A stretch of 62,167 nt of DNA from Candidatus Omnitrophota bacterium (GTDB lineage Bacteria > Omnitrophota > Omnitrophia > Omnitrophales > Aquincolibacteriaceae), in the NCBI GenBank assembly GCA_022711115.1, contig JAKLFP010000008.1:70617-132783 (forward strand), in the 5' to 3' direction. The notes under the pieces are model-generated. The model saw only the letters and a list, made by a program, of their open reading frames with translations, was not told where the DNA came from and made no database searches. The position numbers and the translations under genes are program-made. Shown here in pieces: positions 18,346-33,863 of this stretch (the first letter of the stretch is position 1; every line of letters begins with the position of its first letter).

Positions 18346-18348
18346 AAC

Positions 18349-19443
18349 ATGCCGTTTTTTGGCGATGTTTATAAAAATAAAAAAATCCTAGTTACCGGCC
18401 ACACAGGCTTTAAAGGTTCCTGGTTGTGTTTTTGGCTCTCAAAACTTGGGGCACAAATTTGCGGTTATTCGTTGCAGGCGCCCACAAATCCCGCGCATTA
18501 TCATCTGATCGGATTTCCGCATCACAACATCATTGGCGATATTCGTGACGTCTCTCATGTGGAGCAGGTTTGTCATGATTTTTCCCCGGATTTTGTTTTT
18601 CATCTGGCGGCGCATTCGCTTGTTCGCTCTTCTTATGAAAATCCTCTGGAAACATTTAATACCAACGTCATGGGCACAGTAAATGTCCTGGAAACCTGTC
18701 GCTGCCAGTCATCAGTTCGCGCAGCGATTATCATTACAAGCGATAAATGTTATGAGAATCAAGAAACACTTCGGCCATATCAAGAAACGGATCCGATGGG
18801 AGGACACGATCCTTATAGCGCCTCGAAAGGATGTGCGGAACTTGCGGTAACCGCTTACCGCCGTTCTTTCTTTCAGGAAGGGATCATTCAGGGTGGCCGG
18901 GAAATGCTTTTAGCCAGTGCTCGAGCCGGGAATGTTATGGGAGGCGGTGATTGGGCCGAGGACCGCCTGATGCCGGATCTCGTGCGTGCTGCTGCAACCG
19001 GCACTTCTGTTAAAATACGTCATCCACAGTCTGTTCGGCCTTGGCAACATGTATTGGATGCTTTGAGCGGATACCTTTTGCTAGGCCAAAAACTTCTTGA
19101 AGGAGATTCGGCTTTTGCGGAAGCATGGAATTTCGGGTCGGATACGTCGCATGTCCGGAATGTTCAATATCTTGTCGAGAAATCCTGTGCGATTTGGCCT
19201 AAGATTAAAGTGGATATAAGCAAAACAACACAAGGGCTTCATGAAGCAGGATTGCTCATGCTGGATCCTTCCAAAGCCCGGCAGAAACTTTCATGGGCAC
19301 CGGTCTGGGATACGGACACGGCGATTGATAAGGCCGTAAATTGGTATAAAACATTTTACGAAAAAAATTCAGTGGTTACAGAAGATGATTGGAATGCCTA
19401 TATCCAGGATGCGATGCGCCAAGGAGCGGTATGGACAAAATGA
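18349..19443 (+). CDS. rfbG: CDP-glucose 4,6-dehydratase
   Basis: Extended SDR enzyme of 364 residues converting CDP-glucose to CDP-4-keto-6-deoxyglucose. NAD-binding TGHTGFKGSW is at 17-26, the catalytic tyrosine and lysine are Y157 and K161 in DPYSASKG, and VMGGGDWAEDRLMPD is specific to this dehydratase. It starts 3 bp after rfbF and overlaps rfbH, giving a tight rfbFGH unit. Confidence 0.95.
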   Translation: MPFFGDVYKNKKILVTGHTGFKGSWLCFWLSKLGAQICGYSLQAPTNPAHYHLIGFPHHNIIGDIRDVSHVEQVCHDFSPDFVFHLAAHSLVRSSYENPLETFNTNVMGTVNVLETCRCQSSVRAAIIITSDKCYENQETLRPYQETDPMGGHDPYSASKGCAELAVTAYRRSFFQEGIIQGGREMLLASARAGNVMGGGDWAEDRLMPDLVRAAATGTSVKIRHPQSVRPWQHVLDALSGYLLLGQKLLEGDSAFAEAWNFGSDTSHVRNVQYLVEKSCAIWPKIKVDISKTTQGLHEAGLLMLDPSKARQKLSWAPVWDTDTAIDKAVNWYKTFYEKNSVVTEDDWNAYIQDAMRQGAVWTK

Positions 19444-20783
19444 CCTCTGAAGAAAAACTGAGGCAAGAGATTCTTGGGAAAACTCGCGAATATTACGCCA
19501 AGGCGTTGGCACAAGAACAAGGGCCGTTTATTCCCAGAAAGACACAGGTTCATTACGGCGGCCGTGTCTTTGATGCAAAAGAAGTGGAAGCCCTCGTGGA
19601 TGCTTCGTTGGATTTCTGGCTCACGTACGGCCGTTTTTCCCATGAATTTGAAAAAAAAATTGCGGCCTGTCTCGGAGTCAATTGGGCGTTTTTGGTCAAT
19701 TCGGGATCTTCGGCGAATTTGTTGGCATTGATGGCATTGACATCGCCGCATCTCAAAGAGCGCCGTATCTGTCGAGGGGATGAAGTGATCACGGTTTCGG
19801 CAGCATTTTCGACCACCGTGGCACCTATCATGCAATACGGTGCTGTGCCGGTTTTTGTGGATGTCTTGCTAGGCACCTATAACATCGATGCTTCCGCGCT
19901 TGAAGCCGCAATCTCAAAACGCACCAAAGCCGTAATGCTTGCCCATACCATGGGGAACCCTTTTGATATCAACGCGGTAAAAACCTTTTGCGCGAAACAT
20001 CATCTTTTTCTTATCGAAGACAACTGTGATGCCTTGGGTTCCCGCTACCAGGGTCAGCTGACGGGTGTCTTTGGGGATATAGGGACCAGCAGTTTTTATG
20101 CCTCGCATCACATCACAACAGGAGAGGGCGGAGCGGTTTATACCAGCGATCCGGTCCTGAAAAAAATCCTGTTGTCTTTGCGTGATTGGGGGCGCGATTG
20201 CTGGTGCGATTCGGGGAAGGATAATACCTGCGGCCAGCGTTTCTCCCAACAATGCGGCACGCTTCCTTACGGTTATGATCATAAATATATTTATAGCCAC
20301 TTCGGATATAATGTTAAAGCGACCGAGATGCAGGCCGCTATCGGATGCGCGCAACTTGACAAACTTATGCTTTTTACGGATGCGCGCCGCAAGAATTTCG
20401 CGTTTTTGTATGAGCGTTTGAAGAAATACGAAGACGTTTTTATTTTACCGGAGGCGACTAAAGACAGTGATCCGTCTTGGTTCGGATTTCCACTGACTTT
20501 GCGGGATGACGTGAAATTCACTCGGGGTGAGCTTATGAGCTTCCTAGAAAGTAAAAACATTCAAACAAGGAATCTTTTTGCGGGCAATATCATAAGGCAC
20601 CCTTGTTTTGATGGTCTTAAAGAAGGTGCGGATTATCGGGTGGTCGGGAACCTTAAGAATGCGGACAAAATCACACGGGATACGTTTTGGGTCGGCCTTT
20701 ACCCGGGGATGACGCCGGATCATTTGGCGTATATGGCCGATACCTTCAGTGAATTTTCCAAAAAGGAGAAAAATCACTTATGA
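19431..20783 (+). CDS. rfbH: CDP-4-keto-6-deoxyglucose-3-dehydrase (E1)
   Basis: PLP and [2Fe-2S] enzyme of 450 residues that removes the C3 hydroxyl of CDP-4-keto-6-deoxyglucose. As in E1, the usual PLP lysine is replaced by histidine (H226 in YASHHITTGEGG), and the cluster ligands C257, C259 and C267 sit in RDCWCDSGKDNTCGQ. Start is ATG 19431 with AAGGAG just before it; ATG 19440 is an alternative. The frame overlaps rfbG by 13 bp. Its reductase partner (DdhD/RfbI) is not in the window. Confidence 0.95.
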   Translation: MDKMTSEEKLRQEILGKTREYYAKALAQEQGPFIPRKTQVHYGGRVFDAKEVEALVDASLDFWLTYGRFSHEFEKKIAACLGVNWAFLVNSGSSANLLALMALTSPHLKERRICRGDEVITVSAAFSTTVAPIMQYGAVPVFVDVLLGTYNIDASALEAAISKRTKAVMLAHTMGNPFDINAVKTFCAKHHLFLIEDNCDALGSRYQGQLTGVFGDIGTSSFYASHHITTGEGGAVYTSDPVLKKILLSLRDWGRDCWCDSGKDNTCGQRFSQQCGTLPYGYDHKYIYSHFGYNVKATEMQAAIGCAQLDKLMLFTDARRKNFAFLYERLKKYEDVFILPEATKDSDPSWFGFPLTLRDDVKFTRGELMSFLESKNIQTRNLFAGNIIRHPCFDGLKEGADYRVVGNLKNADKITRDTFWVGLYPGMTPDHLAYMADTFSEFSKKEKNHL

Positions 20784-22309
20784 CCGGTAACGACCTGTTC
20801 CAGCGGCTTTTTATATTTGAATTAGCAAACAATCATTCCGGAGATGTAGCGCACGGCATCCGGACGATACAAGAAATCCTTGGCGCGGCGAAAAAGTTTA
20901 ATTTTCATTTCGCTTTCAAATTTCAATACCGGAATCTGGAAACCTTCATCCATCCGGATTACAAAAACAGAATGGATTTGAAATACATCAAAAGATTTTC
21001 CGAAACGGTCTTAACGGAAGAAGATTTCTTGAAAATGAAAAAGGAAGTTGAAGCGCACGGAGCCTTGACCATCTGCACTCCCTTTGACGAAGAGTCGGTG
21101 GATCGTGTCGTAAAGCACCAATATGACATTTTGAAAATAGCCAGTTGTTCTTTCACGGATTGGCCTTTATTGGAAAAGATCGTCCGGACGGAACTGCCGA
21201 TCATTGCTTCGACAGCAGGTGCTTCCTTGGAAGAGATCGATCAAGTGGTTGCTTTTTTTGAGCATCGGAATAAGCAACTGTGTATCATGCATTGTGTGGG
21301 GGAGTATCCGATCAAGCGGGAAAACCTTCAACTGAATCAAATTGTTTTACTGAAAAAACGTTATCCCGGAATTCCTATAGGATTTTCAACCCATGAAGAG
21401 CCGGACAACACGGAGGCTATCAAGATGGCCATCGCAAAAGGAGCCACGGTTTTTGAAAGGCATGTGGCTGTTGAATCTTCCACCTATCCGGTTAATGCCT
21501 ATTCCTCGACGCCGCTTCAAATCACTCAGTGGCTCCGATCCGCGCAGGAGGCTTACCTCATGAGCGGGGTGGAAGATGAACGTTATGCGATTACTGAAAA
21601 AGAAAAAAATGATTTGCAGGGCCTGAAACGAGGAGTGTTTGCAAAAGGGATACTTCAAAAAGGCGATAAGATAACGAAGGATAACGTTTTTTATGCGATT
21701 CCCTGCACCGAAGGACAACTGGTCGCGAATGATCTTTCAAAATACACCGAATATACCCTGGAAAGAGATCTGCAACTAAAAGAGGCTGTCTGTTTTAAGG
21801 ATTTGAAGGTCCGGCATCTGCGTGAGCAAGTTTTAAAAATCGTCAAAGAGCTTAAAGAAATGCTTTTAAAAGCGCATGTAGCCCTGCCGAACAAAGTGGA
21901 TCTGGAATTGTCCCATCACTATGGCATAGAAAAGTATGAGGAATGGGGCGCAGCGATCTTAAATTGCATCAATCGGGAATACTGTAAAAAACTCATCGTG
22001 CTTTTACCGGGACAGAAACATCCGGTTCATCATCACCTCAAGAAAGAAGAAACCTTTTATATTTTATACGGAAGTATGGAAGTGCTGGCGGGTGCAGAAA
22101 AAAAATCGCTCAAAGCTGGCGATATGTTAACTCTCGAGCGAGGCATGAATCATGACTTCTCGACGGCAGAAGGCGTTATTTTTGAGGAAGTATCGACCAC
22201 CCACTATGAAAACGATTCGTTCTATGAAGACGAAAGAATCGGCCGCAACCAGGACAGAAAAACCGCATTAACTTTCAGGGCGGATTGGCTCTACAAATCA
22301 CTTAAATGA
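20780..22309 (+). CDS. NeuB-family synthase fused to SAF and cupin domains
   Basis: Protein of 509 residues. Residues 1-270 are a NeuB TIM barrel (FIFELANNHSGD, AFKFQYRNLET, TICTPFDEESVD, LKIASCSFTDWPL, GFSTHEEPDN) that condenses PEP with an aldose in nonulosonic acid synthesis. A SAF/antifreeze domain follows (RGVFAKGILQKGDKITKDN, 275-345). The last 140 residues form a cupin with PVHHHLKKEETFYILYGS and a later MNHDF, resembling sugar isomerases. The canonical EKHFT.D....GPDH loop is changed to ERHVAVESSTYPVNAYSSTP, so the substrate may be unusual. Start overlaps the rfbH stop (ATGA). Confidence 0.88.
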   Translation: MTGNDLFQRLFIFELANNHSGDVAHGIRTIQEILGAAKKFNFHFAFKFQYRNLETFIHPDYKNRMDLKYIKRFSETVLTEEDFLKMKKEVEAHGALTICTPFDEESVDRVVKHQYDILKIASCSFTDWPLLEKIVRTELPIIASTAGASLEEIDQVVAFFEHRNKQLCIMHCVGEYPIKRENLQLNQIVLLKKRYPGIPIGFSTHEEPDNTEAIKMAIAKGATVFERHVAVESSTYPVNAYSSTPLQITQWLRSAQEAYLMSGVEDERYAITEKEKNDLQGLKRGVFAKGILQKGDKITKDNVFYAIPCTEGQLVANDLSKYTEYTLERDLQLKEAVCFKDLKVRHLREQVLKIVKELKEMLLKAHVALPNKVDLELSHHYGIEKYEEWGAAILNCINREYCKKLIVLLPGQKHPVHHHLKKEETFYILYGSMEVLAGAEKKSLKAGDMLTLERGMNHDFSTAEGVIFEEVSTTHYENDSFYEDERIGRNQDRKTALTFRADWLYKSLK

Positions 22310-22319
22310 AAGAGCCGAG

Positions 22320-22922
22320 ATGATCACAATTGCCTGGGATGTGGATGATGTATTGAATGATCTGATGAGGGTATGGTTTGACGAAAAGTGGAAGATCGAG
22401 CATCCGGAATGCGGCGTGCAGTATGAAACGATCACGAAGAACCCTCCTCCTGAACTTTTAGGGATTTCATTGGAGGAATATCGGGCCTCGCTCGATGAGT
22501 TCCGATTGTCAGGAAAGTACAAAGAACTTACTCCTGTAGCAGAAGTTCTGAAATGGTTTGAAGCATGCGGTCATTTGTTCAGGCATATTGCCGTGACTGC
22601 GGTTCCCATAAAGGCAGCCTCCGTAAGTGCAGACTGGGTGATGTGTCATTTTGGTACGTGGATTCGTACTTTTCATATGGTTCCTTCTCCCAGAAAAACG
22701 GATTCCATCCCGCAATATGATCAAAATAAAATCGATTTTCTAAAATGGTTTGGAAAAGTCGATGTGTTCATGGATGATTGTGAGGCAAATATCGTGGGAT
22801 GCGCGCAAGCCGGCATTAAAGGGATTGTATTCCCGAGGCCCTGGAACGGGAATCGCTCGACAGTTTCGCAAGTGCTTCACTCTCTGGGCTCGTTGCCATC
22901 TCATCCCAGGGCTTTGAACTAG
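22320..22922 (+). CDS. HAD-like phosphatase (5'-nucleotidase type)
   Basis: Protein of 200 residues with motif I AWDVDDVLNDL at 5-15 (nucleophile D7, acid D9), HIAVTAVPIKAAS in the motif II place and VDVFMDDCEANIVGCAQAGI as motif IV. The overall layout resembles NT5C-type 5'(3')-nucleotidases and small sugar-phosphate phosphatases. It starts 10 bp after the NeuB-like gene, so dephosphorylation of the nonulosonate 9-phosphate or a precursor is a reasonable guess. Confidence 0.75.
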   Translation: MITIAWDVDDVLNDLMRVWFDEKWKIEHPECGVQYETITKNPPPELLGISLEEYRASLDEFRLSGKYKELTPVAEVLKWFEACGHLFRHIAVTAVPIKAASVSADWVMCHFGTWIRTFHMVPSPRKTDSIPQYDQNKIDFLKWFGKVDVFMDDCEANIVGCAQAGIKGIVFPRPWNGNRSTVSQVLHSLGSLPSHPRALN

Positions 22923-22967
22923 TATTTCAAATCAACGTGAAAAATCTTTCAGGAAAAAGTTGAGTTT

Positions 22968-24062
22968 ATGACAGATCAAAAACTAAGGCCCGAAGAGGCC
23001 AATCGGAGAAACAAGCTCAAAGAAGAGAAACCTCTTGTCTACGAAAAAATCATGAAATTTGATGAAAAAATCAGACGAGGGGAGAGCATTGCGATCATCC
23101 AGTTCCAGTATAACTATGTATGCAATTTTGCTTGTCAGCACTGCTCCATCAAAAGATTTCAGGGCAAAAAAGAAGGTCGTACCTTCACCATTCCTGATGT
23201 AAAAGATCTCTTTCGGCAGGCGGATGAGATGGGTTTGGCACGTGTGACCATTACGGGTGGTGAACCGCTGGTGTTCAAGGACTTTGATGAGCTTGTTGCG
23301 GCGATTGATCCTCAAAAATTCTATATCAACTGTGATACAAATGGATGGCTTTTGGATGTAAAGAGGGCCAAGCATCTGAAAAAGATCGGTGTGGACAGGA
23401 TTCAATTGAGTCTTGATAGCCTTAACGCCAAAGAGCATGACGATTTTAGAAAGGCCCCGGGTTCCTTTGAAAGAGCCATGAAAGCGGTTGACGCAGCTTT
23501 GGATGCAGGATTGGGCATTTTTATCCAGACCGTCGTAACGAAACAGAGATTGCACTCCAAAGAATTCATCGATTTTATTGAGTATTTTAATAAAAAAGGC
23601 ATCGGCGTCTTTGTCACCTACGCCAAACCAGTCGGGTCTTGGGAAGGTAACTTTGACGTTTTGGTGGATAAAAATGATATGAACTACATGAGAGAACTTG
23701 AAAAAAAGCACAAGGTGTTCACTCATTTAACGCCGGCGTACGGACTTGATATGGGCTGCATTGCGGTCAAAGGCATGTTTTCTGTAACTCAGTACGGCGA
23801 TGTGTTGCCTTGTCCGTATATCCACACGTCGATCGGGAATGTTTTTAAGGAACCTCTCAAGGATATTGTGCAGAGAGGATTGAGCATCAAATATTTTGGT
23901 GAATATGTGGACACTTGTCTTATTGCGGAAGATAAGGATTTTATTGATCAATATATTGTGAAACGAATCTATGGCAAGCCGTTGCCGGTCCCATGTTCTG
24001 AGGTTTTTACCGAAGAAGATAAAACTCAAAAGCCGTTCCATCAGCATGATGCTGGAAAATAG
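22968..24062 (+). CDS. Radical SAM protein with SPASM-like C-terminus (1)
   Basis: Protein of 364 residues. The cluster motif C52-x3-C56-x2-C59 lies in YVCNFACQHCSIK, preceded by an 50-residue N-terminal extension; ITGGEPLVF and DTNGWLL are the SAM-contacting strands. In the C-terminus, GCIAVKGMFSVTQYGDVLPCPYI and several later cysteines suggest an auxiliary cluster (SPASM/twitch type). Substrate unknown; the setting within NulO and dideoxyhexose genes suggests sugar or lipid-linked sugar chemistry. Confidence 0.85.
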   Translation: MTDQKLRPEEANRRNKLKEEKPLVYEKIMKFDEKIRRGESIAIIQFQYNYVCNFACQHCSIKRFQGKKEGRTFTIPDVKDLFRQADEMGLARVTITGGEPLVFKDFDELVAAIDPQKFYINCDTNGWLLDVKRAKHLKKIGVDRIQLSLDSLNAKEHDDFRKAPGSFERAMKAVDAALDAGLGIFIQTVVTKQRLHSKEFIDFIEYFNKKGIGVFVTYAKPVGSWEGNFDVLVDKNDMNYMRELEKKHKVFTHLTPAYGLDMGCIAVKGMFSVTQYGDVLPCPYIHTSIGNVFKEPLKDIVQRGLSIKYFGEYVDTCLIAEDKDFIDQYIVKRIYGKPLPVPCSEVFTEEDKTQKPFHQHDAGK

Positions 24063-24118
24063 CAATCATCAAGACAAATTCCTTTCGGGTGGCTGCCCAT
24101 AGAAATGAGCATTGTCCC

Positions 24119-25033
24119 ATGACGAATCTAAATGATGACAGTCAGGAGCTTTTAACGCGACCCCAACATGTCCGGTGTCCGGTCTGCGGCCACCCTCTTT
24201 TCAAAAAGAAGTACTCAATCAATCACTACACCCTCGTGCAGTGTTGTGCCTGTCAGGTAATTTTTGTCAGAGAAAAACTATCACAGCAAGACTTGGACCA
24301 ATATTATTTCAAAGAGGTAGACGGTGCGGAGGGAAAGAAAGACTGTGTTTATTTGGATGAAGAGAATATTGAAAATTTAAGCTATTACTACCGTCGTTTA
24401 AAAGCACTTATTTTAAAAAGGATTCAAACAGGAAAGGTTCTCGATATCGGGTGCAATGCGGGATATTTTTTGGATGTTATGGATGGTTTTGAGTGCTACG
24501 GTGTCGAAAGATCTCCGGACTACTCGAAAGTTGCGAAAAGCAAACATGGGGAACGTATCTTTGAGGGAACTTTTGAGGATTACCAGGTTCCTGATAATTT
24601 TTTTGATTGCATCAGCATGCAAGATGTTTTTGATCATATGCTGGATCCCATGGCGGTATTGGAAAAATGTCGCCGTCTTCTCAAGCCGGACGGCATTTTA
24701 GTAGTTAAAGTCCATGACCTATCCTGTTTGTACGCGAGGATGACGGGGAAGAATTTTTATGCCTTAATTCCTCCTGCGCACTTGTTCTTTTACAACAGGC
24801 CTTCTCTTAAAACAGCTCTCCAAAAGGCTTCTTTTGAGATTATTTTTTCCAAGCATATCGGTCACTTGATGTTCTTAAGTACCATCGTCTATCGATTATC
24901 GAGAAAAGATCCCCAAAGCATCTTCTTTCACTTGCATCGATGGATCGAAAAAACCTGGTTCGGAAGGCAAAAAATACATAAAAATCTCCACGACATTATC
25001 ACCATCATAGCTGTGAAGAAAAGTCAAGGATAG
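24119..25033 (+). CDS. SAM-dependent methyltransferase with N-terminal zinc ribbon
   Basis: Protein of 304 residues (start ATG 24119; an upstream in-frame GTG at 24089 lacks a ribosome site). A four-cysteine zinc ribbon (RCPVCG and QCCACQ; C20, C23, C42, C45) is followed by a class I methyltransferase fold with VLDIGCNAGYFLDVM and an ISMQDVFDHMLDP motif. This zinc-ribbon/methyltransferase order is common in C- or O-methyltransferases of glycan clusters. A hydrophobic patch near 225-255 (YALIPPAHLFFYN) is typical of this family too. Confidence 0.85.
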   Translation: MTNLNDDSQELLTRPQHVRCPVCGHPLFKKKYSINHYTLVQCCACQVIFVREKLSQQDLDQYYFKEVDGAEGKKDCVYLDEENIENLSYYYRRLKALILKRIQTGKVLDIGCNAGYFLDVMDGFECYGVERSPDYSKVAKSKHGERIFEGTFEDYQVPDNFFDCISMQDVFDHMLDPMAVLEKCRRLLKPDGILVVKVHDLSCLYARMTGKNFYALIPPAHLFFYNRPSLKTALQKASFEIIFSKHIGHLMFLSTIVYRLSRKDPQSIFFHLHRWIEKTWFGRQKIHKNLHDIITIIAVKKSQG

Positions 25034-25037
25034 CGGC

Positions 25038-26063
25038 ATGAATCCGAAATGGAGCCATTTGTATGAAATGTCCCGCAAAATTCATTCGGTGCAAGCGATG
25101 CCGAAAGTTTGGAATTATCTCAAATACCGTTGTGCTAAAAGGGGATCAAAAATTTCCATCAAACATTTCACCCCGCAGATCGCTGCCTTATGGGTTACCC
25201 AGCGTTGCAATTTAAACTGCTGGTTTTGCGGTGCGAGTGATTTCGTGAATAAAAAGGATGCCGGCAAGCCCGGAACCGAAGCCACCCTTGCAAAAGTCGA
25301 ACGGATTTTTGAAAGTCCATTATTTTCAAGCTGTCTGTTGGTGGATTTAGAAGGAGGTGAGCCGTTGCTGGTGGATGAGCTTGGTCGCATAGTTGCCTAT
25401 CTTGCCCATAAGGGACATCTTGTTAATACTTCCACGAATGGTTTATTGCTGGCCGATCGCGTAGTCGAACTTAAAAAAGCCGGCATTTCGAGAATCAATC
25501 TATCGTACTATGATGAAAACCATGCTGTGGTAGAACGCAATCTCGAAAAGATTAACCGCATTTTCCCTGTCCATATGAGCATGTTATTGCTGCGGAGCAA
25601 GGTTGAAAACCATCAGGACGAGATTTTGCGGGCCGCGAAGTTCTTTCGTGAGGCAGGGTGCCGTAGTCTTCGCTTTTGGATTTATCGGCCTATGGGAACC
25701 GACCCCAAACCAGATGAGATTGTTTATGATACGAGCCAGGCCTACATGGAATTTCAGCAACGGATCGAGAAGGAATTGCCGGGGTTCTGTTACTGGCCTG
25801 TTGCGAAACAAGGCGTTAAAATACAAAAACGCTGTCCTCGTTTATGGCAATGGATCGGTTGCGATATGTTAGGGAACATGGCGATTTGTTGTGGCACGAA
25901 TATGCTGCTGCAAGGGCCCCAAAGCAATCTCTTTCAAAGTGATCCGGAAGCTCTTTTAAATCATCCCATGTTTGTTATGATGCGCAGCCAGTTGATGGAT
26001 CCTCAAAGCGCTCCTCCTGAGATCTGCAAAAACTGTAATTTGTTGGGTGATCCTGGCTGGTGA
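25038..26063 (+). CDS. Radical SAM protein with C-terminal cysteines (2)
   Basis: Protein of 341 residues with C57-x3-C61-x2-C64 in QRCNLNCWFCGAS, LEGGEPLLVDE and STNGLLL. The C-terminus has CPRLWQWIGCDMLGNMAICCG and EICKNC, consistent with a SPASM-type auxiliary cluster. It starts 4 bp after the methyltransferase. The fold is like heme/quinohemoprotein-type rSAM peptides enzymes, but no precursor peptide is certain here. Confidence 0.85.
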   Translation: MNPKWSHLYEMSRKIHSVQAMPKVWNYLKYRCAKRGSKISIKHFTPQIAALWVTQRCNLNCWFCGASDFVNKKDAGKPGTEATLAKVERIFESPLFSSCLLVDLEGGEPLLVDELGRIVAYLAHKGHLVNTSTNGLLLADRVVELKKAGISRINLSYYDENHAVVERNLEKINRIFPVHMSMLLLRSKVENHQDEILRAAKFFREAGCRSLRFWIYRPMGTDPKPDEIVYDTSQAYMEFQQRIEKELPGFCYWPVAKQGVKIQKRCPRLWQWIGCDMLGNMAICCGTNMLLQGPQSNLFQSDPEALLNHPMFVMMRSQLMDPQSAPPEICKNCNLLGDPGW

Positions 26064-26095
26064 TTAAAGATTGATGGAAAAAGATAGACAATAGC

Positions 26096-26227
26096 ATGCC
26101 TAGTATGACGTTCACAGCAGCTTTGGAGAGCACAATTCGGGAATTCGTGATCGGTTTTTTTGCTAAAGCTTCGAATCATACAATCAGTACAGCCACGATT
26201 TGGCTCAAGGGTTTCTTTCATGCATAA
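26096..26227 (+). CDS. Possible 43-residue small ORF ahead of the B12 radical SAM gene
   Basis: Open frame ATG 26096 to TAA 26227 filling the only long gap (156 bp) inside the cluster and overlapping the downstream ATG by 8 bp. The product, roughly MPSMTFTAALESTIREF at its start and ISTATIWLKGFFHA at its end, is amphipathic and Thr/Ala/Phe-rich. No convincing ribosome site is seen. It may be a leader peptide, a genuine small protein or chance. Confidence 0.2.
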   Translation: MPSMTFTAALESTIREFVIGFFAKASNHTISTATIWLKGFFHA

Positions 26228-27872
26228 AATTTTGTTCGTCATTCCTCCCTATGTAACCTTCGATAGATTTGTGCATCCGACTTTCAATGAACGTGTTGTC
26301 GCTAAAAAAAATGGTTTTTTTGGAAGTGTTCTCACAGATATGCCGATCGGAGTGCTATCCTTGAGTGCTTATTTAAAAAAATACAACCCAGCGCAAACCC
26401 AACTTTTGGACTTTAATATCCTTCTCAGCAAGGCAGAGAAGTTCGAATATCAATCCTTTTCGGAATTATTTCGTGCGGTTTTTGCTGAAAAAAAATGGAT
26501 GGACTATGCTCCGGATATTATAGGAATCTCTACGCTCTTTACGCCTTCCTATTACAGCATGCTGGATTTAGCGGCTGTCACGCGAGAGATTTATCCCAAG
26601 GCCTTGATTGTGGCAGGCGGGGGTGTGCCGACCAATATGTATCAAGAGATCTTTAGCAAAAGCTCGTGTTTTGATGCCCTCTGTTATGGGGAAGGGGAAA
26701 AACCTTTTCGGGAGCTGATCGAAGCCAAAGACAAGACAGGTTTTTTAGAAACCAGTCGATCCTGGATCACGAAGCGAAAAACAGAGCATGGTGAATCCTT
26801 TCAGCATGACTTTATCCATCATCTCGATGAAATTCCTTTTTGTGATTATGGGCTATGTAATATTGAGGATTATGGATTGAATCCTGCAATCACGGCTTAT
26901 AACGCCGGAAAAAATGAAAAGGAAAGAGCTTTTCACGTTATGACGTCTCGGGGCTGTCCTTTTCATTGCTGTTTTTGTGCCTCCCATACGGTGCACGGTC
27001 GGAGCATGCGTTATAACAGTATTGCCAGGATTCGAGAGGATTTTAAAAAACTTCGAGATGAATATGGAGCGAAAACCTTGGTATTCCAAGATGATCACTT
27101 CATGGCAGACAAACAGAGGGTTTATGCGATTATTGATATCGTTAAGGAACTGGGCGTCAAGGTTGTTTTTCAAAACTCATTGGCTCTTTATGCGTTGGAC
27201 CGAAGCATGCTGGAGGCTTTAAAAAGTGCCGGGCTCGATCAACTGGTGCTGTCGATTGAATCCGGTAGCAGCCGGGTTTTAAAAGAGATTATGCACAAAC
27301 CTTTTGACCTTTCCATGGCCCGGCAGGTAGTGAAGGATTGCCGTGATCTTGGCATCTATACCAATGCGAATATTCTCATAGGACTTCCCGGAGAAACAAA
27401 AAAGGATATCGAGGATACCAGGGAATTTTTAAGGACGCTCGACGCTAACTGGTACATTATATTTTGCGCGACACCTTTACTGGGGAGTGAAATGTTCAAA
27501 ATTTGTCTCGAGAAAGGATACTTTAAAGGGCATTATATGGATTGTGACTACAAAAAAGCGATTGTCGAAACAGAGGATTTCACAACGGCATTCATAGAAG
27601 AAAAGGCTTACGCGTTGAACTTAGAATTAAACTTTGTGGAGAATAGTGATTTAAGGCATGGGCGCTACGAAACAGCATTGAAGGGATTTGAAAATGCCAT
27701 AAGGGCGAAAAACGATCATGCCTTTGGTTTTTATTTTGCGGCAAAGTGCTGTAAAATGATGGATCATACTGAGAAACATCTTTTTTATAAAACAAAGTAC
27801 CAAGAAACGATTGAAAAATCTTCTTTCTGGAGGAATTACGCCAAACAATTTGGTTTGATTTCTCTCGGATAA
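26220..27872 (+). CDS. B12-binding radical SAM protein
   Basis: Protein of 550 residues (start ATG 26220; the frame upstream to 26160 lacks a ribosome site). MHKILFVIPPYVTFDRFVHP and the VAGGGVPTNMY block at 130-140 form the cobalamin-binding Rossmann domain. The radical SAM motif C246-x3-C250-x2-C253 is in GCPFHCCFCAS, followed by FQDDHFM and NILIGLPGET. The C-terminal 90 residues look like TPR helices (DLRHGRYETALKGFENAIRA). Members of this class do methylations, ring contractions or C-C couplings; the substrate is unknown. Confidence 0.9.
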   Translation: MHKILFVIPPYVTFDRFVHPTFNERVVAKKNGFFGSVLTDMPIGVLSLSAYLKKYNPAQTQLLDFNILLSKAEKFEYQSFSELFRAVFAEKKWMDYAPDIIGISTLFTPSYYSMLDLAAVTREIYPKALIVAGGGVPTNMYQEIFSKSSCFDALCYGEGEKPFRELIEAKDKTGFLETSRSWITKRKTEHGESFQHDFIHHLDEIPFCDYGLCNIEDYGLNPAITAYNAGKNEKERAFHVMTSRGCPFHCCFCASHTVHGRSMRYNSIARIREDFKKLRDEYGAKTLVFQDDHFMADKQRVYAIIDIVKELGVKVVFQNSLALYALDRSMLEALKSAGLDQLVLSIESGSSRVLKEIMHKPFDLSMARQVVKDCRDLGIYTNANILIGLPGETKKDIEDTREFLRTLDANWYIIFCATPLLGSEMFKICLEKGYFKGHYMDCDYKKAIVETEDFTTAFIEEKAYALNLELNFVENSDLRHGRYETALKGFENAIRAKNDHAFGFYFAAKCCKMMDHTEKHLFYKTKYQETIEKSSFWRNYAKQFGLISLG

Positions 27873-27910
27873 TTTAAAAATATAGTGCGTTCCTTGCAAA
27901 GGTGGAGTTT

Positions 27911-28603
27911 ATGAACCTATCCATGCCGTTTTCAGAATTGAAACCATATATTGCCAAACAGCTCGATCATTTCTTTCCGGATTCATATCGGTTCGACGGC
28001 GCGGACGTCGATAGCGCATTGGATGCCGCGATTCAAAGGGCGGAATACTGTTTTAAGCATGTCGATATGCGTTATTACAATGATGAACGAGGGGCTTGTT
28101 TTTATCATTTGCACTCAGATCAATATACTTCCTTTCTTTATTTTTTATCTAATAGTTTATGGCTTAAATCGCAAAACAAACCTCTTTGCGATAAACTATT
28201 ATTCCTGAACAAGACCCTCAACTCTATGTTCATTTCGTATCACTGCAAACTTCCGGACATCTTTGTTTTTTCTCATGCGATCGGATCCGTTATCGGCAAT
28301 GCTGTCTATTCTGATTTTTTAGTGGTCTTTCAAAATGTCACCATCAATACGGGAGATGACACGGGTGTGTGGCAGCCTCCGAAACTTGGGAAGGGTGTTT
28401 TTCTTGGCGCGGACGTGAAGATTATCGGCAGTGGGACAATCGGTCATTTTTCTTCCATCGGGGTGGGTTCCTGTATTTATAAGTTTGATGTGCCGGATCA
28501 TTCGGTTGTTTTCACTGATACAAACGGAAAATTGAATATTAAGAAGCATGAAAAACCTTGCCGTGCGCAAGCCTACTTCAACGTGGATATTCAGAAACAC
28601 TAG
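27911..28603 (+). CDS. Left-handed beta-helix acyltransferase (serine acetyltransferase-like)
   Basis: Protein of 230 residues (ATG 27911 with GGTGGAG before it). The N-terminal half is helical; the C-terminal half carries hexapeptide repeats (VIGNAVYSDFLVVFQNVTIN, LGKGVFLGADVKIIGSGTIG, SSIGVGSCIYKFDVP) as in CysE-like acetyltransferases. Placement among glycan genes, far from cysK, suggests O- or N-acylation of a sugar and not cysteine synthesis. Confidence 0.8.
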   Translation: MNLSMPFSELKPYIAKQLDHFFPDSYRFDGADVDSALDAAIQRAEYCFKHVDMRYYNDERGACFYHLHSDQYTSFLYFLSNSLWLKSQNKPLCDKLLFLNKTLNSMFISYHCKLPDIFVFSHAIGSVIGNAVYSDFLVVFQNVTINTGDDTGVWQPPKLGKGVFLGADVKIIGSGTIGHFSSIGVGSCIYKFDVPDHSVVFTDTNGKLNIKKHEKPCRAQAYFNVDIQKH

Positions 28604-28633
28604 GGTGATATTTGATGCCACAACCGAGGATTT

Positions 28634-29128
28634 ATGAACATAGCTGATGCCATAGCTTTGCTCGATCGGGAAGTGCCGGATCCGTCGAGAGGCTTGCCCG
28701 AAGCTCTCTTTTTTTATATCAGTAGAACGACACCGCTGGTCAATGTTGACCTTTTAATCAAGGATGAAAACGGACGCGTCCTTTTGGCGTGGAGAGACGA
28801 TCCGTATAGCGGCAACGGCTGGCATATTCCTGGCGGCATCGTCCGGTTCAAAGAAACTTTGGAGCAAAGAGTCAACAAAGTGGCTGAGACAGAAATAGGA
28901 ACTTTGGTTGAGTTTAATCCAGTGCCGATCGCAGTCAAGCAGTGCATTCACCATGAGCGGGAAATACGGAGTCATTTTATTTCTATTTTATATCAATGCT
29001 CTCTTCCTAGTTCCTTTATGCCGGAGAATAAAGGTCTTTCCGAAGGGGATGCCGGGTATCTCCAGTGGCATGAGCAATGTCCCGAGCATTTATTGAAATG
29101 TCATGAAATGTACCGCAATTATTTATAG
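28634..29128 (+). CDS. Nudix hydrolase, GDP-mannose mannosyl hydrolase-like
   Basis: Protein of 164 residues. GWHIPGGIVRFKETLEQRVN begins a degenerate Nudix box in which the usual REUXEE becomes VNKVAETE, a feature of GDP-mannose mannosyl hydrolases (WHIPGG and the flanking LAWRDDPYSGNGW fit too). Such enzymes hydrolyse or edit nucleotide sugars. Located between the acyltransferase and a radical SAM gene. Confidence 0.8.
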   Translation: MNIADAIALLDREVPDPSRGLPEALFFYISRTTPLVNVDLLIKDENGRVLLAWRDDPYSGNGWHIPGGIVRFKETLEQRVNKVAETEIGTLVEFNPVPIAVKQCIHHEREIRSHFISILYQCSLPSSFMPENKGLSEGDAGYLQWHEQCPEHLLKCHEMYRNYL

Positions 29129-29149
29129 ATTTAAGCGAAAGGGCATCAT

Positions 29150-30175
29150 TTGAAAGCAAAGGATATTAGCGGTCAGGCGCCAGGGGGGAGAAGAACAAAG
29201 TTGGCTGAAGCGCTTCCTCTGGACACGCCTTTTGTGGTGCAGATATTTCCAGTTTACGCCTGCAATTTTACCTGTCATTACTGCATTTTCTCAATTGATA
29301 AGAAAAAGCATGGCTTCATTTCGGACGAAGTCGTTATGGACCTCTCCCTTTATAAGAAATGCGTGGATGATATGACAGCTTTTCCCCATAAAATCAAAGT
29401 GCTGCGCTTTGTAGGGATTGGGGAGCCGCTCCTGCATAAACATATAGCAGAGATGATCCAATATGCTGCCTCAAAAAATATCGCTGAAAGGATAGAACTT
29501 CTCACAAACGGACTCCTTTTGACTCCTCCCATGTCCGACAAGTTGCTTGCCGCCGGCCTGTCACGGCTGGTCGTATCTCTTCAAGGCATCACGGCAGAAA
29601 AATATAAGGAAATTTGCGGCGTCACCATTGATATGAGCCAGTTTATCGATAACCTGCGTTATTTTTTTCACCATAAAGGTCAGGCTCAGATGTATATCAA
29701 GATCATCGATTGCGCTTTGAAAGATAAAGAAGAGGAACGCCAATTCTTCCAGCTTTTCGGGGATATTTGCGACACTCTTGCCGTGGAACATGCGGTGCCG
29801 ATCCATTCTGGTGTTGATTATAAAACTATTTTGGGGAAAGAAAAGATGCCGGTGACCCAATTCGGGCTTCCTGTTTCAGAAGTTAAAATTTGCCCGCAGC
29901 CTTTTTTTACCATGCAGATCAATCCTGATGGAAAAGTCGTGCCCTGTTATTCCTTTGAGTACCCGCAGATTATGGGCAATTGTCATGACCAATCAGTTTG
30001 TGAGATTTGGAATGGGAAACCTTACAGGCAATTTCGGTGTTTGATGCTGGATGGAATTCAAAATGTGGGCGTGGTGTGCGCGCATTGCAACATTATTAAA
30101 TACAGGCTATTCCCAGAAGATGTTCTCAATGAAGATGCGGAAAGGCTCAAGAAATTATACGGAACAGACGAATAG
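29150..30175 (+). CDS. Radical SAM/SPASM protein (3)
   Basis: Protein of 341 residues starting at TTG 29150; GAAAGGG lies about 8 nt upstream and no ATG fits before the cluster motif. C38-x3-C42-x2-C45 is in ACNFTCHYCIF, IGEPLLH and LTNGLLLT follow. The C-terminal SPASM region has CPQPFFTMQINPDGKVVPCY, CEIW and VCAHC. It follows the Nudix gene by 21 bp. Confidence 0.85.
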   Translation: MKAKDISGQAPGGRRTKLAEALPLDTPFVVQIFPVYACNFTCHYCIFSIDKKKHGFISDEVVMDLSLYKKCVDDMTAFPHKIKVLRFVGIGEPLLHKHIAEMIQYAASKNIAERIELLTNGLLLTPPMSDKLLAAGLSRLVVSLQGITAEKYKEICGVTIDMSQFIDNLRYFFHHKGQAQMYIKIIDCALKDKEEERQFFQLFGDICDTLAVEHAVPIHSGVDYKTILGKEKMPVTQFGLPVSEVKICPQPFFTMQINPDGKVVPCYSFEYPQIMGNCHDQSVCEIWNGKPYRQFRCLMLDGIQNVGVVCAHCNIIKYRLFPEDVLNEDAERLKKLYGTDE

Positions 30176-30226
30176 AGACGGAACCATCAACAAGGCTTTT
30201 TGATCGCGGTATGGAGGAACGGAAAC

Positions 30227-31162
30227 ATGCAGAAAAAACTTATCAGCATTGTCACTCCTTGTTATAACGAAGAAGGCAATATTCTGGATCTGTATCACCA
30301 AGTCAAAGAGGTGATCAACCAATTTTCAAATTATGATTTCGAATTTATTTTTATCGATAATGCTTCCCAGGATAACACCGTCAATATTTTGAGAGAGCTT
30401 GCCAGCAAGGATAAAGTTGTCAAAGTCATCGTGAATGCAAGGAATTTCGGCCCGTTGCGGTCTCCGATCCATGCCATTTATCAAGCGAAGGGGGATGCCA
30501 TTATCATCATGGCATCCGATCTGCAGGATCCTCCGCCGGTCATCGAAAAGTTCATAAAAAAATGGGAAGAGGGTTTTAAGATTGTGATTGGCGTCAAAGA
30601 AGGAAGCAAAGAGAACAAGCTTATGTTTCTCGTGCGCCGAATCTATTATTACCTGCTGGCCAATATTTCTGAGACAAAGCAAATCAAGAATTTCAATGGG
30701 TTCGGACTCTATGACAGGGTGTTCATTGATACCGTCCGCCGTCTCGATGACCCTTATCCTTATTTTCGAGGATTGGTTACGGAATTTGGTTATTCAAAAG
30801 CCGAAGTGTCTTATGTGCAAGGGAAACGGGAAAAGGGGAAAACAAAAAATAGCTTTTATATTTTATACGATGCGGCGATGCTGGGGATTGTGAGCCATTC
30901 AAAGTTGCCGCTGAGGTTGGCAAGTTTTGTCGGTTTCGGAACGGCTTTCATCAGTGTGATTTGTGGCATGGTCTATTTGATCTACAAACTGCTTTTTTGG
31001 GATACTTTCCCGGGAGGGATTGCTCCGCTTGTGATCGGGTTGTTTTTTATGGGAGGTGTTCAATTGTTTTTTCTCGGAGTCATCGGAGAATATATCGGCT
31101 CGATCCATACAAAGCTCGTGCATATGCCGTTAGTCGTCGAAAAGGAGCGCATTAATTTCTAA
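30227..31162 (+). CDS. Membrane glycosyltransferase, GT2 (polyprenyl-phosphate sugar transferase type)
   Basis: Protein of 311 residues; ATG 30227 with GGAGG upstream is preferred over TTG 30200. SIVTPCYNEEGNILDLY begins a GT-A fold, with DLQDPPPVIEKF as the metal-binding DxD equivalent. Two C-terminal helices (ASFVGFGTAFISVICGMVYL and the GGIAPLVIGLFFMGGVQLFF region) end in GEYIGSIHTK, the layout of GtrB/ArnC-like enzymes that load a sugar onto undecaprenyl phosphate. It may attach the cluster's sugar to a lipid carrier. Confidence 0.87.
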   Translation: MQKKLISIVTPCYNEEGNILDLYHQVKEVINQFSNYDFEFIFIDNASQDNTVNILRELASKDKVVKVIVNARNFGPLRSPIHAIYQAKGDAIIIMASDLQDPPPVIEKFIKKWEEGFKIVIGVKEGSKENKLMFLVRRIYYYLLANISETKQIKNFNGFGLYDRVFIDTVRRLDDPYPYFRGLVTEFGYSKAEVSYVQGKREKGKTKNSFYILYDAAMLGIVSHSKLPLRLASFVGFGTAFISVICGMVYLIYKLLFWDTFPGGIAPLVIGLFFMGGVQLFFLGVIGEYIGSIHTKLVHMPLVVEKERINF

Positions 31163-32968
31163 ATGATCAAACTATCTGATTATGTCTTTCAATTTGTTGC
31201 CCGTTTAGGGGTGCAGCATGTTTTTTTGCTGCCGGGCGGCGGGTGTATGCATCTGGTGGATTCTTTGGGAAGCCAGAAAAGTCTGGAATACGTGAGCTGT
31301 CTTCATGAGCAGGCCGCAGTGATTGCAGCGGAGGCCTACGCCCAATATACCCATAACATCGGAGTTGCCTTGGTGACGACAGGGCCTGGTGGGACCAATG
31401 CCATTACCGGTGTGGCCGGGGCATGGATTGATTCGACGCCTCTCTTGGTACTCTCAGGGCAGGTAAAACGTTCGGACATGATCGGTTCGAGTGGGCTCAG
31501 ACAATTGGGCATTCAGGAAACGGATATTGTTTCCATGGTGAAATCAATTACAAAATACGCCGTGACTGTGACCAATCCTTCACGCATCAAATACCATCTT
31601 GAAGAAGCGGTCTATCGTGCAAAGACAGGACGACCCGGTCCGGTTTGGATCGATATCCCGTTGGATGTGCAAGGCGCTATGATTGAAGAAAAAAAACTAG
31701 AAGGGTTTATCCCACCGGCAGCTTTCGTGCAAGAACATCATCCGGATCTTGCTTCACTTGTTGATCAAACCATTGCCCTTTTAAACAATGCCGAACGTCC
31801 CGTGATCCTTGCGGGGAATGGTATCCGCCTGGCTGGCGGCTTGGAAGCATTCCTAGATCTTATTGAATTCCTGCATATCCCTGTGTTGACAACTTGGAAA
31901 GCGATCGATTTCCTGCCGGAAGACCACAAATTTTTCTTCGGGCGGCCCGGTTCGATCGGACAACGCGGAGCCAATTTTATTCAGCAAAATAGCGATTTGT
32001 TGCTTGTATTGGGTGCGAGACTGGACCTTGCGCAGGTGGGGTACGAACACCAGAACTTTTGCCGGGCAGCCCAAAAAATCATTGTCGATATGGATGAAGC
32101 TGAAATTAAGAAACTAAAAATGAATATTGAGTTACCCGTTTGTGCGAGCGCCAAAGATTTCCTGCAAGAATTTTTCCAGCAGAAGGCAAAAGTGAAATTC
32201 AAAGAACGTTCGACATGGCTTACGCGTTGCCGTGACTGGAAAGAAAAGTATCCTGTGATATTGCCGCAATATTGGGATAAAAAAGAAGATGTGAACACCT
32301 ATGTTTTAGTGGATGTTTTGTCCGAGTTATTGACGGGAAACGATTTGTGTGTGCCGGGGAGTTCAGGGAGTTGCAGTGAAATTACCATGCAAGCATTTCG
32401 GGTGAAAAAAGGTCAGCGTCTTTTGAACAGTCCCGGTCTCGGCGCTATGGGATTCGGTTTGCCGGCCGCGATCGGGGCATGTCTGGCCAGCGGACGGAAA
32501 CGTACCATCAGTATTATCGGAGACGGGGGTTTGCAGCATAATATTCAAGAGCTGGAAACTTTGACGCGTTTGAAGCTTCCCTTGAAGTTGTTTATTTTGA
32601 ATAATAACGGTTATGCTTCGATCCGTAACACACAAAATACTCATTTTCAAGGACGGCTTGTTTCCTGTGATCCTTCAAGCGGATTATCGCTTCCCGACAC
32701 GGCGGCCATTGCTTCGGCCTATGGTTTAAAGTATAAAAAAATCTCCAATCACCAGAACATCCGTGAAAATATCGCCGAAGTTTTAGCCGGCGAAGGACCG
32801 ATGGTCTGTGAGGTCATGACGGATCCTGGGCTTGTGACCGCGCCCCGACTTTCCTCGGAAATCATGCCGAATGGTTCCATAGTTTCCAAGCCTTTGGAAG
32901 ACCTTTGGCCGTTTTTAGACCGTAAAGAATTTTATGAAAATATGATCATCCCTCCAGTGAAGCCATGA
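31163..32968 (+). CDS. Thiamine-diphosphate enzyme, acetolactate-synthase-like (YerE-like candidate)
   Basis: Protein of 601 residues with all three domains of the ALS/pyruvate-oxidase family. The cofactor-activating glutamate is E49 in LHEQAAV; GPGGTNAITGVAGA lines the active site; the TPP motif begins IIGDGGLQHNIQELETLTRL and ends at NNNGYAS. No small regulatory subunit or other branched-chain amino-acid genes are nearby. Together with rfbFGH and the following SDR it fits YerE, which adds a two-carbon unit from pyruvate to a CDP-4-keto-3,6-dideoxyhexose. Its ATG follows the GT2 stop directly. Confidence 0.85.
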   Translation: MIKLSDYVFQFVARLGVQHVFLLPGGGCMHLVDSLGSQKSLEYVSCLHEQAAVIAAEAYAQYTHNIGVALVTTGPGGTNAITGVAGAWIDSTPLLVLSGQVKRSDMIGSSGLRQLGIQETDIVSMVKSITKYAVTVTNPSRIKYHLEEAVYRAKTGRPGPVWIDIPLDVQGAMIEEKKLEGFIPPAAFVQEHHPDLASLVDQTIALLNNAERPVILAGNGIRLAGGLEAFLDLIEFLHIPVLTTWKAIDFLPEDHKFFFGRPGSIGQRGANFIQQNSDLLLVLGARLDLAQVGYEHQNFCRAAQKIIVDMDEAEIKKLKMNIELPVCASAKDFLQEFFQQKAKVKFKERSTWLTRCRDWKEKYPVILPQYWDKKEDVNTYVLVDVLSELLTGNDLCVPGSSGSCSEITMQAFRVKKGQRLLNSPGLGAMGFGLPAAIGACLASGRKRTISIIGDGGLQHNIQELETLTRLKLPLKLFILNNNGYASIRNTQNTHFQGRLVSCDPSSGLSLPDTAAIASAYGLKYKKISNHQNIRENIAEVLAGEGPMVCEVMTDPGLVTAPRLSSEIMPNGSIVSKPLEDLWPFLDRKEFYENMIIPPVKP

Positions 32969-32981
32969 GGAGGAATTATCG

Positions 32982-33863
32982 ATGAAGATCTTTATTTCAG
33001 GAGGTTCAGGTTTTATCGGGAGAAATCTTAAAGAACAGTTAGCCGGGAAATATGAAATTCATGCCCCGGGCAGGGAGGAGCTCGATCTTTTGGATCCGGA
33101 GAAAGTCAGGAGCTTTCTCAAAGATCATCATTTTGATATTGTGATTCACTGCGCCACCTGGAATGCCACAAGGAATTCCAAAAAAGACACCGCCAAAATT
33201 CTAGAAAATAATCTTCGTATGTTCTTTAATCTCGCCAGATGTTGCGGAGACTTTGGCAGATTGATTAACTTTGGTTCGGGGCAGGAATATGACAGGGAAC
33301 ATTGGATCCCGAAGATGAAAGAAGAATATTTTGACATGCATGTGCCGCAAGATCAGGCCGGATTTTCGCGCTATCTTATCGGTCGTTATGTGGCGTTGGC
33401 GCATAATATCGTTAACTTGCGCCCTTTTGCCGTGTTTGGGAAATATGAAGACTGGGAAATACGTTTCATTTCAAACGCCTGTTGCAAGGCGGTATGGGAT
33501 TTGCCGATCACCATCAAAAAGAATGTTTTTTATGATTATCTTTATATCGATGATTTAGTAAAAATCACCAATTGGTTTATCCAGAACCGGCCTAAGGAAA
33601 AGGTTTATAATATTTGCACGGGTAGGACTTATGATTTATTAACATTAGCCAAAAAGGTTTTAAAAGTTTCCGGTAAAAACCTTGAGATTAAGATCGCTCA
33701 ACCAGGGATCGATAAAGAATATAGCGGGGACAACGCAAGGCTGTTTCAAGAGATGGGGTCGGTTTCCTTTGAAGATATCGACCATAGTATCTCAGCATTG
33801 TATGAATGGTATAAAATTCACAAGAAGGATATTAACCGCGAACTGTTATTGAAAGATAAGTGA
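32982..33863 (+). CDS. NAD-dependent epimerase/reductase (SDR), YerF-like candidate
   Basis: Extended SDR of 293 residues with NAD(P)-binding SGGSGFIGRN at 6-15 and an INFGSGQEYDRE active-site strand. The YxxxK position reads Y131-LIG-R135, so the usual lysine appears as arginine; NLRPFAVFGKYEDWE and IDDLVK are otherwise typical. It is 14 bp after the TPP enzyme, with AGGAGG before the ATG, and would reduce the branched ketosugar made there (inference). Last gene of the cluster. Confidence 0.82.
   Translation: MKIFISGGSGFIGRNLKEQLAGKYEIHAPGREELDLLDPEKVRSFLKDHHFDIVIHCATWNATRNSKKDTAKILENNLRMFFNLARCCGDFGRLINFGSGQEYDREHWIPKMKEEYFDMHVPQDQAGFSRYLIGRYVALAHNIVNLRPFAVFGKYEDWEIRFISNACCKAVWDLPITIKKNVFYDYLYIDDLVKITNWFIQNRPKEKVYNICTGRTYDLLTLAKKVLKVSGKNLEIKIAQPGIDKEYSGDNARLFQEMGSVSFEDIDHSISALYEWYKIHKKDINRELLLKDK

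Follow-up and report, generated by a model that had tools for sequence, protein, structure and literature searches.

In a stretch of 62,167 nucleotides from a Candidatus Omnitrophota bacterium (contig JAKLFP010000008.1, positions 70,617 to 132,783; hereafter the window), 15 genes on the plus strand form one operon (17575-33863), in which the largest intergenic gap is 156 bases. It is common to bacteria and archaea that are only very distantly related, and its most likely role is to couple two pieces derived from sugars, carbon to carbon, into an unusual large branched sugar that radical enzymes trim. This higher-carbon sugar, probably 4-C-branched, would be built by a route of the YerE type and mounted by the same operon. 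A preliminary description of this DNA had pointed to four radical S-adenosylmethionine (SAM) proteins, here called rSAM1 to rSAM4, as the striking feature. The backbone chemistry would mainly consist of thiamine diphosphate (ThDP)-dependent carboligation and NeuB condensation, both of which that description missed, and it left four operon members unmentioned: the ThDP enzyme, a short-chain dehydrogenase/reductase (SDR), a NUDIX hydrolase and a HAD-like protein. The genes are, in their order:

17575..18345, plus strand: rfbF-like, glucose-1-phosphate cytidylyltransferase (TIGR02623, 275.1 bits, cut-off 300.25)
18349..19443, plus strand: rfbG, CDP-glucose 4,6-dehydratase (TIGR02622, 461.6 bits, above the cut-off of 278.45)
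19431..20783, plus strand: rfbH, CDP-6-deoxy-4-hexulose 3-dehydrase, E1 (NF011936, 700.8 bits, above the cut-off of 423; deduced start within an open reading frame, ORF, that opens at 19389)
20780..22309, plus strand: NeuB-SAF-cupin fusion, phosphoenolpyruvate (PEP)-dependent ulosonate synthase with a D-lyxose-isomerase-like cupin (Pfam NeuB and Cupin_2; SAF by eye)
22320..22922, plus strand: putative HAD-like phosphatase, adjoining NeuB (HAD-type motif by eye)
22968..24062, plus strand: rSAM1, core radical SAM/twitch enzyme and signature of the cassette (Radical_SAM, 96.4 bits)
24089..25033, plus strand: class I SAM methyltransferase, accessory, paired with rSAM2 (Methyltransf_23)
25038..26063, plus strand: rSAM2, rare accessory radical SAM protein (Radical_SAM, 51.3 bits)
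26220..27872, plus strand: rSAM3, B12-binding radical SAM protein, frequent accessory (B12-binding and Radical_SAM)
27902..28603, plus strand: CysE-like acyltransferase (NF041874, 50.3 bits, below cut-off)
28634..29128, plus strand: NUDIX hydrolase of the GDP-mannose mannosyl hydrolase (Gmm) type (PDB matches to Gmm only, 33 bits)
29150..30175, plus strand: rSAM4, radical SAM/SPASM enzyme, frequent accessory (Radical_SAM 57.8 bits, SPASM 52.6 bits)
30200..31162, plus strand: GT2, ArnC/PgfS-like polyprenyl-phosphate sugar transferase (NF047588 184.3 bits and NF007986 108.8 bits, both below cut-off)
31163..32968, plus strand: YerE-like ThDP carboligase (best PDB match JanthE, 8rph)
32982..33863, plus strand: SDR reductase with a presumed YerF-like role (Pfam Epimerase)

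The protein encoded at 31163 was compared with solved structures. Its best match is 8rph (427.5 bits), which is aligned over residues 2-594 and covers the C-terminal tail; the next one, the acetolactate synthase 5ahk, reaches 304.9 bits in an alignment that ends at 563. According to the part of the source available to us, 8rph is JanthE, a YerE-like enzyme (PMC12188165). Over the full length, the protein is closer to JanthE, the YerE-like reference in a comparison that did not extend to YerE itself, than to acetolactate synthase. The motif HEQAA with the catalytic glutamate aligns with JanthE, and a second ThDP motif reads GDGG, compared with CDGG in JanthE. As far as the available portion of a review goes, YerE-like enzymes couple an alpha-keto acid to CDP-4-keto-3,6-dideoxyglucose: YerE takes pyruvate, leading to yersiniose A, ErwE prefers longer hydroxy keto acids, leading to erwiniose, and MMAR_2332 is the enzyme for caryophyllose (PMC12247030). 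From its family and context, the 31163 enzyme is predicted to be a YerE-like carboligase active on this acceptor, and we regard its gene as the key one of the cassette. It is adjoined by the SDR gene both in the window and in another genome of the phylum (G005). RfbFGH are encoded alongside, as expected for the YerE-like class, with exceptions in loci from Lachnospiraceae.

The acceptor itself can be assigned from the three rfb genes. RfbG and RfbH score above their NCBIfam cut-offs, and the best PDB match of RfbH is a CDP-hexulose 3-dehydrase (3bcx, 522 bits, versus about 204 for the Wbdk/ColD type). The HH pair of RfbH aligns with that of 3bcx, which presumably stands in place of the lysine that binds pyridoxal phosphate. 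Synthesis of CDP-4-keto-3,6-dideoxyglucose, the acceptor of YerE-like enzymes, by RfbFGH is well supported by family.

Related loci were collected by scanning one genome per species, 84,980 species altogether, with the rSAM1 alignment. From the 98 relatives the best 80 loci were kept; many of these lie on cut contigs. The main counts refer to the 46 loci that are flanked on either side by 8 kb or more. Of these, 45 have the ThDP gene and 45 have NeuB (cupin-fused in 41 and short in 4), followed by NUDIX (34), rfbF (29), a C-methyltransferase (CMT; 29), rfbG (27, or 17 at a limit of 35% identity), rSAM4 (20), GT2 (19), HAD (18), rSAM3 (12) and rSAM2 (2). All 80 loci together hold 67 ThDP and 56 NeuB-cupin genes. 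Where NeuB and ThDP genes are both present, they are on the same strand and at most 1.3 kb apart in 52 of 59 loci. Neither partner was detected in four control loci with rSAM1-like proteins of 28-33% identity (four of seven such). RfbH is seen by family in 34 of the 46 loci, but in three of these the relatives are distant ones (28-32%). With a limit of 45% identity, it is present within 31 of the 46 and within 44 of all 80. For 24 of the 80 cassettes, 17 of which had been picked for having no true RfbH seen in the locus, we also searched the whole genomes: 23 contain an RfbH with 50% identity or more (in one case split over two frames), and G157 contains none. In the Marinitoga genome (L071) rfbH is split over two frames. 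Co-occurrence with NeuB-cupin and rfbH, which the preliminary description had suggested as a check, is thus strongly borne out for rSAM1.

Among 145 genomes of the phylum, rSAM1 of at least 70% identity exists only in the source genome (G000) and in G005, G025 and G134; after these the matches fall sharply, to 33% or less. All four have the NeuB-cupin and the ThDP enzyme. The same four carry rSAM3 at 58% or more (58-63% in the three others than G000); three of them have NUDIX as well as an rSAM4 of at least 65% identity, and two have rSAM2. NeuB-cupin of at least 50% identity occurs in these four and in G039, and RfbH at E 1e-120 in 22 of the 145 genomes, as compared with 23 of the 24 cassette genomes above.

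The tree, calculated for 70 of the 80 loci and the window, spreads these cassettes widely: 60 of the 70 rows bear 21 different phylum labels, 10 bear none, and some are archaeal bins. The rSAM1 of the window is 83% identical to that of a genome from the same family and equally close to one on a contig labelled Kiritimatiellaeota, and on supported branches the Omnitrophota rows need at least two groups. This suggests, and does not prove, transfer of the cassette between phyla, as bins can hold stray contigs. A plasmid search with rSAM1 gave no match at E 1e-40. Among named strains, cassettes were seen in Marinitoga lauensis (L071) and Butyrivibrio (L064, L094).

The NeuB-cupin protein is the candidate for making the keto acid donor. 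NeuB condenses an aldose with PEP, the product being a 3-deoxy-2-keto acid. In the AlphaFold model (pLDDT 90.8), the N-terminal part matches 3g8r by Foldseek (TMt 0.95, 50% identity), and the C-terminal part matches D-lyxose isomerases (TMt 0.61-0.69, with 2y0o and 7nzq at 0.67-0.68), some of which were solved with mannose or fructose. Residues K47, K119, H205, H228, H419, E424 and H458 are identical in 27 of 27 sequences, while position 417 holds either H (19 sequences) or Q (8). Because the cupin part resembles D-lyxose isomerases and keeps H419, E424 and H458 throughout, it is plausible that the protein itself generates the aldose it needs, starting from a ketose. For the HAD-like protein at 22320 no Pfam, NCBIfam or PDB match was found; 25 loci have a member of its family, which in 23 of them immediately adjoins NeuB, and HAD_2 proteins of another kind take its place, beside NeuB or the ThDP gene, in L045, L072, L089 and L099. 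The only solved relatives of the NUDIX protein are Gmm enzymes, and these are weak matches (33 bits; NF011963 40.7 bits, cut-off 146). Its NUDIX box appears to deviate from the consensus where that of Gmm does. A Gmm-like NUDIX would be in keeping with a substrate resembling mannose, and with an acid of nine carbons.

NeuB belongs to the sialic acid synthase family, and the window protein has the catalytic residues of such a synthase. RfbFGH alone, moreover, make 3,6-dideoxyhexoses in other bacteria. One may hence think of two separate sugars in one glycan, a nonulosonic (sialic-type) acid from NeuB-cupin and a 3,6-dideoxyhexose from RfbFGH, one of them decorated by the radical SAM proteins. 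We regard this as improbable in view of the close spacing of NeuB and ThDP genes given above, and a nonulosonic acid pathway would also be expected to encode a CMP-ulosonate synthetase alongside. Of 19 genomes searched, the cassette contig was mapped in the four from Omnitrophota (G000, G005, G025, G134); in all four it is without any CTP_transf_3 gene (PF02348, NeuA/KdsB-type), the matches being on other contigs. In the surroundings of rSAM1 (up to 8 kb away), 66 unassigned ORFs with 180-300 aa were compared with the CMP-ulosonate synthetase family, and at most one match was among those listed (25 of 91 families).

Further evidence against two separate sugars comes from genomes in which other keto-acid makers replace NeuB beside the same ThDP and RfbH genes. 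In G043 the ThDP gene stands beside an acetaldehyde dehydrogenase (394.5 bits, cut-off 282.25) and a 4-hydroxy-2-oxovalerate aldolase (372.4 bits, cut-off 286). This set (L112:1-6532, G043:C74) is erwiniose-like within Omnitrophota and consists of rfbG, acetaldehyde dehydrogenase, 4-hydroxy-2-oxovalerate aldolase, a YerE-like enzyme, an SDR and an rfbH cut by the contig end. In G051 it adjoins a short NeuB together with a phosphatase of the KdsC type (109.5 bits, cut-off 106.95); a 34% relative of rSAM4 lies beside ThDP, short NeuB and RfbH there, and no rSAM1 of the cassette group was found in the stretch examined. In G016, rfbF, rfbG, SDR, ThDP and rfbH lie together with no keto-acid synthase seen, like a yersiniose set. 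The donor slots of G043, G051 and G016 would match the erwiniose, ulosonate and yersiniose situations, respectively. In erwiniose and caryophyllose, the extra CH2 is at the position expected if a decarboxylated 3-deoxy-2-keto acid had been added.

The arrangement in G016, which does without NeuB, also gives some ground for a YerE-type backbone with pyruvate as donor, that is a yersiniose, in which case NeuB, NUDIX and the radical SAM proteins would make a different sugar travelling in the same cassette; YerE itself takes pyruvate (PMC12247030, in the part available). This appears unlikely to us, as the linkage of NeuB and ThDP genes is tight over loci with 21 phylum labels, and as in G043 a keto-acid maker of an unrelated family occupies the NeuB slot.

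We return to the branched higher-carbon sugar. In the proposed pathway, RfbF, RfbG and RfbH would provide CDP-4-keto-3,6-dideoxyglucose as acceptor. The lyxose-isomerase-like domain of NeuB-cupin would turn a ketose into an aldose and NeuB would condense this with PEP, yielding a 3-deoxy-2-keto acid. Any phosphate present would be stripped off by the HAD protein, and the Gmm-like NUDIX may free the sugar from a nucleoside diphosphate sugar. The YerE-like enzyme would then decarboxylate the keto acid and attach the resulting acyl unit at C4, the ketone position of the acceptor, so that a tertiary alcohol is formed, as family and context suggest. The SDR would presumably reduce the new ketone, and the radical SAM proteins would act in tailoring, either of the donor piece or of what results from the coupling, with rSAM1 as a near-constant step and rSAM4, rSAM3 and rSAM2 as optional ones. 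Finally, GT2 is expected to load the sugar onto polyprenyl phosphate. The product should have about 13 or 14 carbons if it starts from a C5 or C6 aldose. A more specific version can be put forward only tentatively: the NeuB/lyxose isomerase fusion may deliver a C8-C9 keto-deoxy acid, KDN- or KDO-like, which is decarboxylated by the YerE-like enzyme onto C4 of the CDP-dideoxyhexose, and the radical SAM enzymes may rebuild the resulting C13-C14 sugar, a surface-glycan unit across bacterial and archaeal phyla.

The four radical SAM proteins, from which the preliminary description had started, are indeed encoded at 22968, 25038, 26220 and 29150; all score above the Pfam Radical_SAM cut-off and contain the Cx3Cx2C motif, which is invariant in 71 of 71 rows of the rSAM1 alignment. 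The start of rSAM3 at 26220 is upheld by homologues aligning from that methionine, and the TTG start of rSAM4 agrees with its homologues. A B12-binding domain is, as described, confined to rSAM3. SPASM-like cysteines had been ascribed to three of the proteins. For rSAM4 this is clear, for rSAM1 the Pfam match is weak (24.8 bits, cut-off 21.5), and rSAM2 has no Pfam SPASM, yet seven C-terminal cysteines are common to it and its one close homologue. The annotation of the neighbours rfbF, rfbG, rfbH, NeuB-cupin, methyltransferase, CysE-like acyltransferase and GT2 was confirmed by Pfam and NCBIfam.

rSAM1 has six invariant cysteines, the three of the SAM cluster and only three auxiliary ones (264, 282 and 317), and three is the MoaA-like count. 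Its AlphaFold2 model (pLDDT 93.5) has generic SPASM/twitch enzymes as neighbours, with SkfB and SuiB at the top and viperin, BlsE, MoaA, DesII and BtrN also included, at 13-21% identity. With the maturases SkfB and SuiB so prominent in this comparison, and SPASM being common in such enzymes, a pathway for a ribosomally synthesized and post-translationally modified peptide (RiPP), in which the rSAM/SPASM proteins modify the peptide, has to be considered. We reject it as highly improbable: in 47 loci, the gaps up to 5 kb from rSAM1 hold 199 small ORFs, none of whose families recurs in more than two loci as a conserved precursor peptide should, the tight packing of the operon, with gaps of at most 156 bases, leaves no room, and the partners that stay constant are enzymes for sugars and keto acids. 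The former interpretation is thus supported in part: the cluster would make a sugar with the help of radical steps, for which deoxygenation, epimerisation and C-methylation had been named as candidates, and would not be a RiPP system. The idea of the four proteins acting as one fixed unit has to be given up in view of the locus counts, by which rSAM1 is core, rSAM4 and rSAM3 are frequent and rSAM2 is rare.

For rSAM3, the closest solved chain is 6fd2, apramycin oxidoreductase 4 (AprD4), with 80 bits over the radical SAM part. As regards a putative role as B12-dependent radical SAM C-methyltransferase, the B12-binding and Radical_SAM domains are both present and the best NCBIfam models remain far below cut-off. 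AprD4 is a diol dehydratase. rSAM2 occurs in 2 of the 145 phylum genomes, its own included, and in 3 of the 80 loci, and a relative of the methyltransferase is located beside it in L024, L028 and L029. For the CysE-like acyltransferase no counterpart was found in any of the 80 related loci (blastp, E 1e-5). A further radical SAM family (cluster 14, about 400 aa) lies near rSAM1 in 11 of the 80 loci, for instance at L045:7468-8670.

rSAM4, counted by family above (18 of the 46 loci at 35% identity or more), alternates with CMT: 25 loci have CMT only, 16 rSAM4 only, 4 both and 1 neither (Fisher 7e-8). On the tree there is one independent pair on supported branches and six on all branches, with which a sign test is unable to reach significance. 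Since the alternation reflects largely shared descent, with few independent pairs, it is only a hint; CMT and rSAM4 as exchangeable enzymes were not accepted.

Several observations weigh against a branched sugar made by this set of enzymes. The fold neighbours of rSAM1 do not single out one reaction, therefore we describe its role only as tailoring of the donor or of the coupled sugar. RfbF stays just under the cut-off of its model. The ThDP gene is missing from the 20 kb of L087, and NeuB is missing from L095. G039 has NeuB-cupin, HAD, SDR, RfbH and, on another contig, ThDP, with no rSAM1 match, although its contigs are broken inside NeuB and ThDP; rSAM1 is therefore not strictly tied to NeuB-cupin. 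Most Lachnospiraceae loci are without a true RfbH nearby and have it elsewhere in the genome. In three of these genomes (G145, G150, G151) RfbH is located about 5-7 kb from a CTP_transf_3 gene, that is a gene of a cytidylyltransferase family, and may serve another sugar there, which makes its link to the cassette less sure.

The density of radical SAM genes is by itself not special. The source genome (2.5 Mb) has 37 Radical_SAM matches, and these four, within 7.5 kb, are its tightest group, but comparable spots exist on a second contig (four within 16 kb) and a third one (three within 10 kb). In other Omnitrophota, L021 and L023 have about seven genes per 20 kb resembling the radical SAM proteins of the window (21-35%), without ThDP or NeuB-cupin partners. 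What is special is the conserved partnership. A fifth radical SAM gene lies in the window outside the cassette (47302-48240; Radical_SAM 40.9 bits, Fer4_12).

The operon is followed by tilS and ftsH, both named by eye from the translation. A scan of promoters and terminators gave no clear excess over shuffled sequences (33 versus 31.8, and 26 versus 21.0, standard deviation 4.7). About 8 kb downstream of the cassette, a PMT_2-type membrane glycosyltransferase is fused to TPR repeats (41080-42924); this protein could be a user of polyprenyl-phosphate sugars. Upstream, a DsbD-like protein (13716-14942) has the TsoB selenoprotein family as its best NCBIfam model (361 bits, below cut-off).

If our interpretation is true, YerE-type sugars have a large unexplored branch in which the donors, instead of being pyruvate or the product of a small aldolase, are built by a NeuB synthase, and biosynthesis of envelope sugars includes radical chemistry. 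It would also be a source of new ketone-accepting carboligases. Since the carriers of the cassette include, besides many uncultured lineages, some named strains (Marinitoga lauensis, Butyrivibrio), the prediction is directly testable by glycan analysis.

Among the papers listed in a literature search, none combines YerE-type sugars with either radical SAM proteins or NeuB; an earlier description may exist in the main survey on clusters with YerE-like enzymes and in two related papers, which were outside this search. In the available portion of the review text (PMC12247030), the terms 'NeuB' and 'radical SAM' are absent. Sialic and other nonulosonic acid pathways, including that for KDN (NeuB or KDN-9-phosphate synthase with a HAD phosphatase), likewise have a PEP-dependent synthase adjoining a phosphatase; in the cassette a ThDP enzyme takes the place of the CMP-ulosonate synthetase, which is missing from the contig in the four Omnitrophota genomes. 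The small-sugar radical SAM enzymes AprD4, BlsE, DesII and BtrN share the fold, AprD4 as the nearest solved relative of rSAM3 and the other three as fold neighbours of rSAM1; identity is low, and their function is not transferable. The yersiniose A pathway (RfbFGH, YerE and YerF) is also close, since RfbF, RfbG, RfbH, an SDR and a ThDP enzyme of the YerE-like class are clustered in the window too. It differs in its pyruvate donor, as far as the source describes it, and in lacking a separate keto-acid synthase, whereas a NeuB-type synthase is predicted in the window and in almost all well-flanked loci; NUDIX, HAD and at least one radical SAM protein are further additions here. The erwiniose and caryophyllose pathways (ErwE, MMAR_2332) likewise use a YerE-like enzyme on a longer hydroxy alpha-keto acid (PMC12247030, in the part available), the maker of the donor being NeuB-cupin in the cassette described here. 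Summarizing, it is likely that a new sugar is built by ThDP carboligation on an acceptor from RfbFGH and by radical tailoring, which extends the YerE-type branched-sugar pathway.

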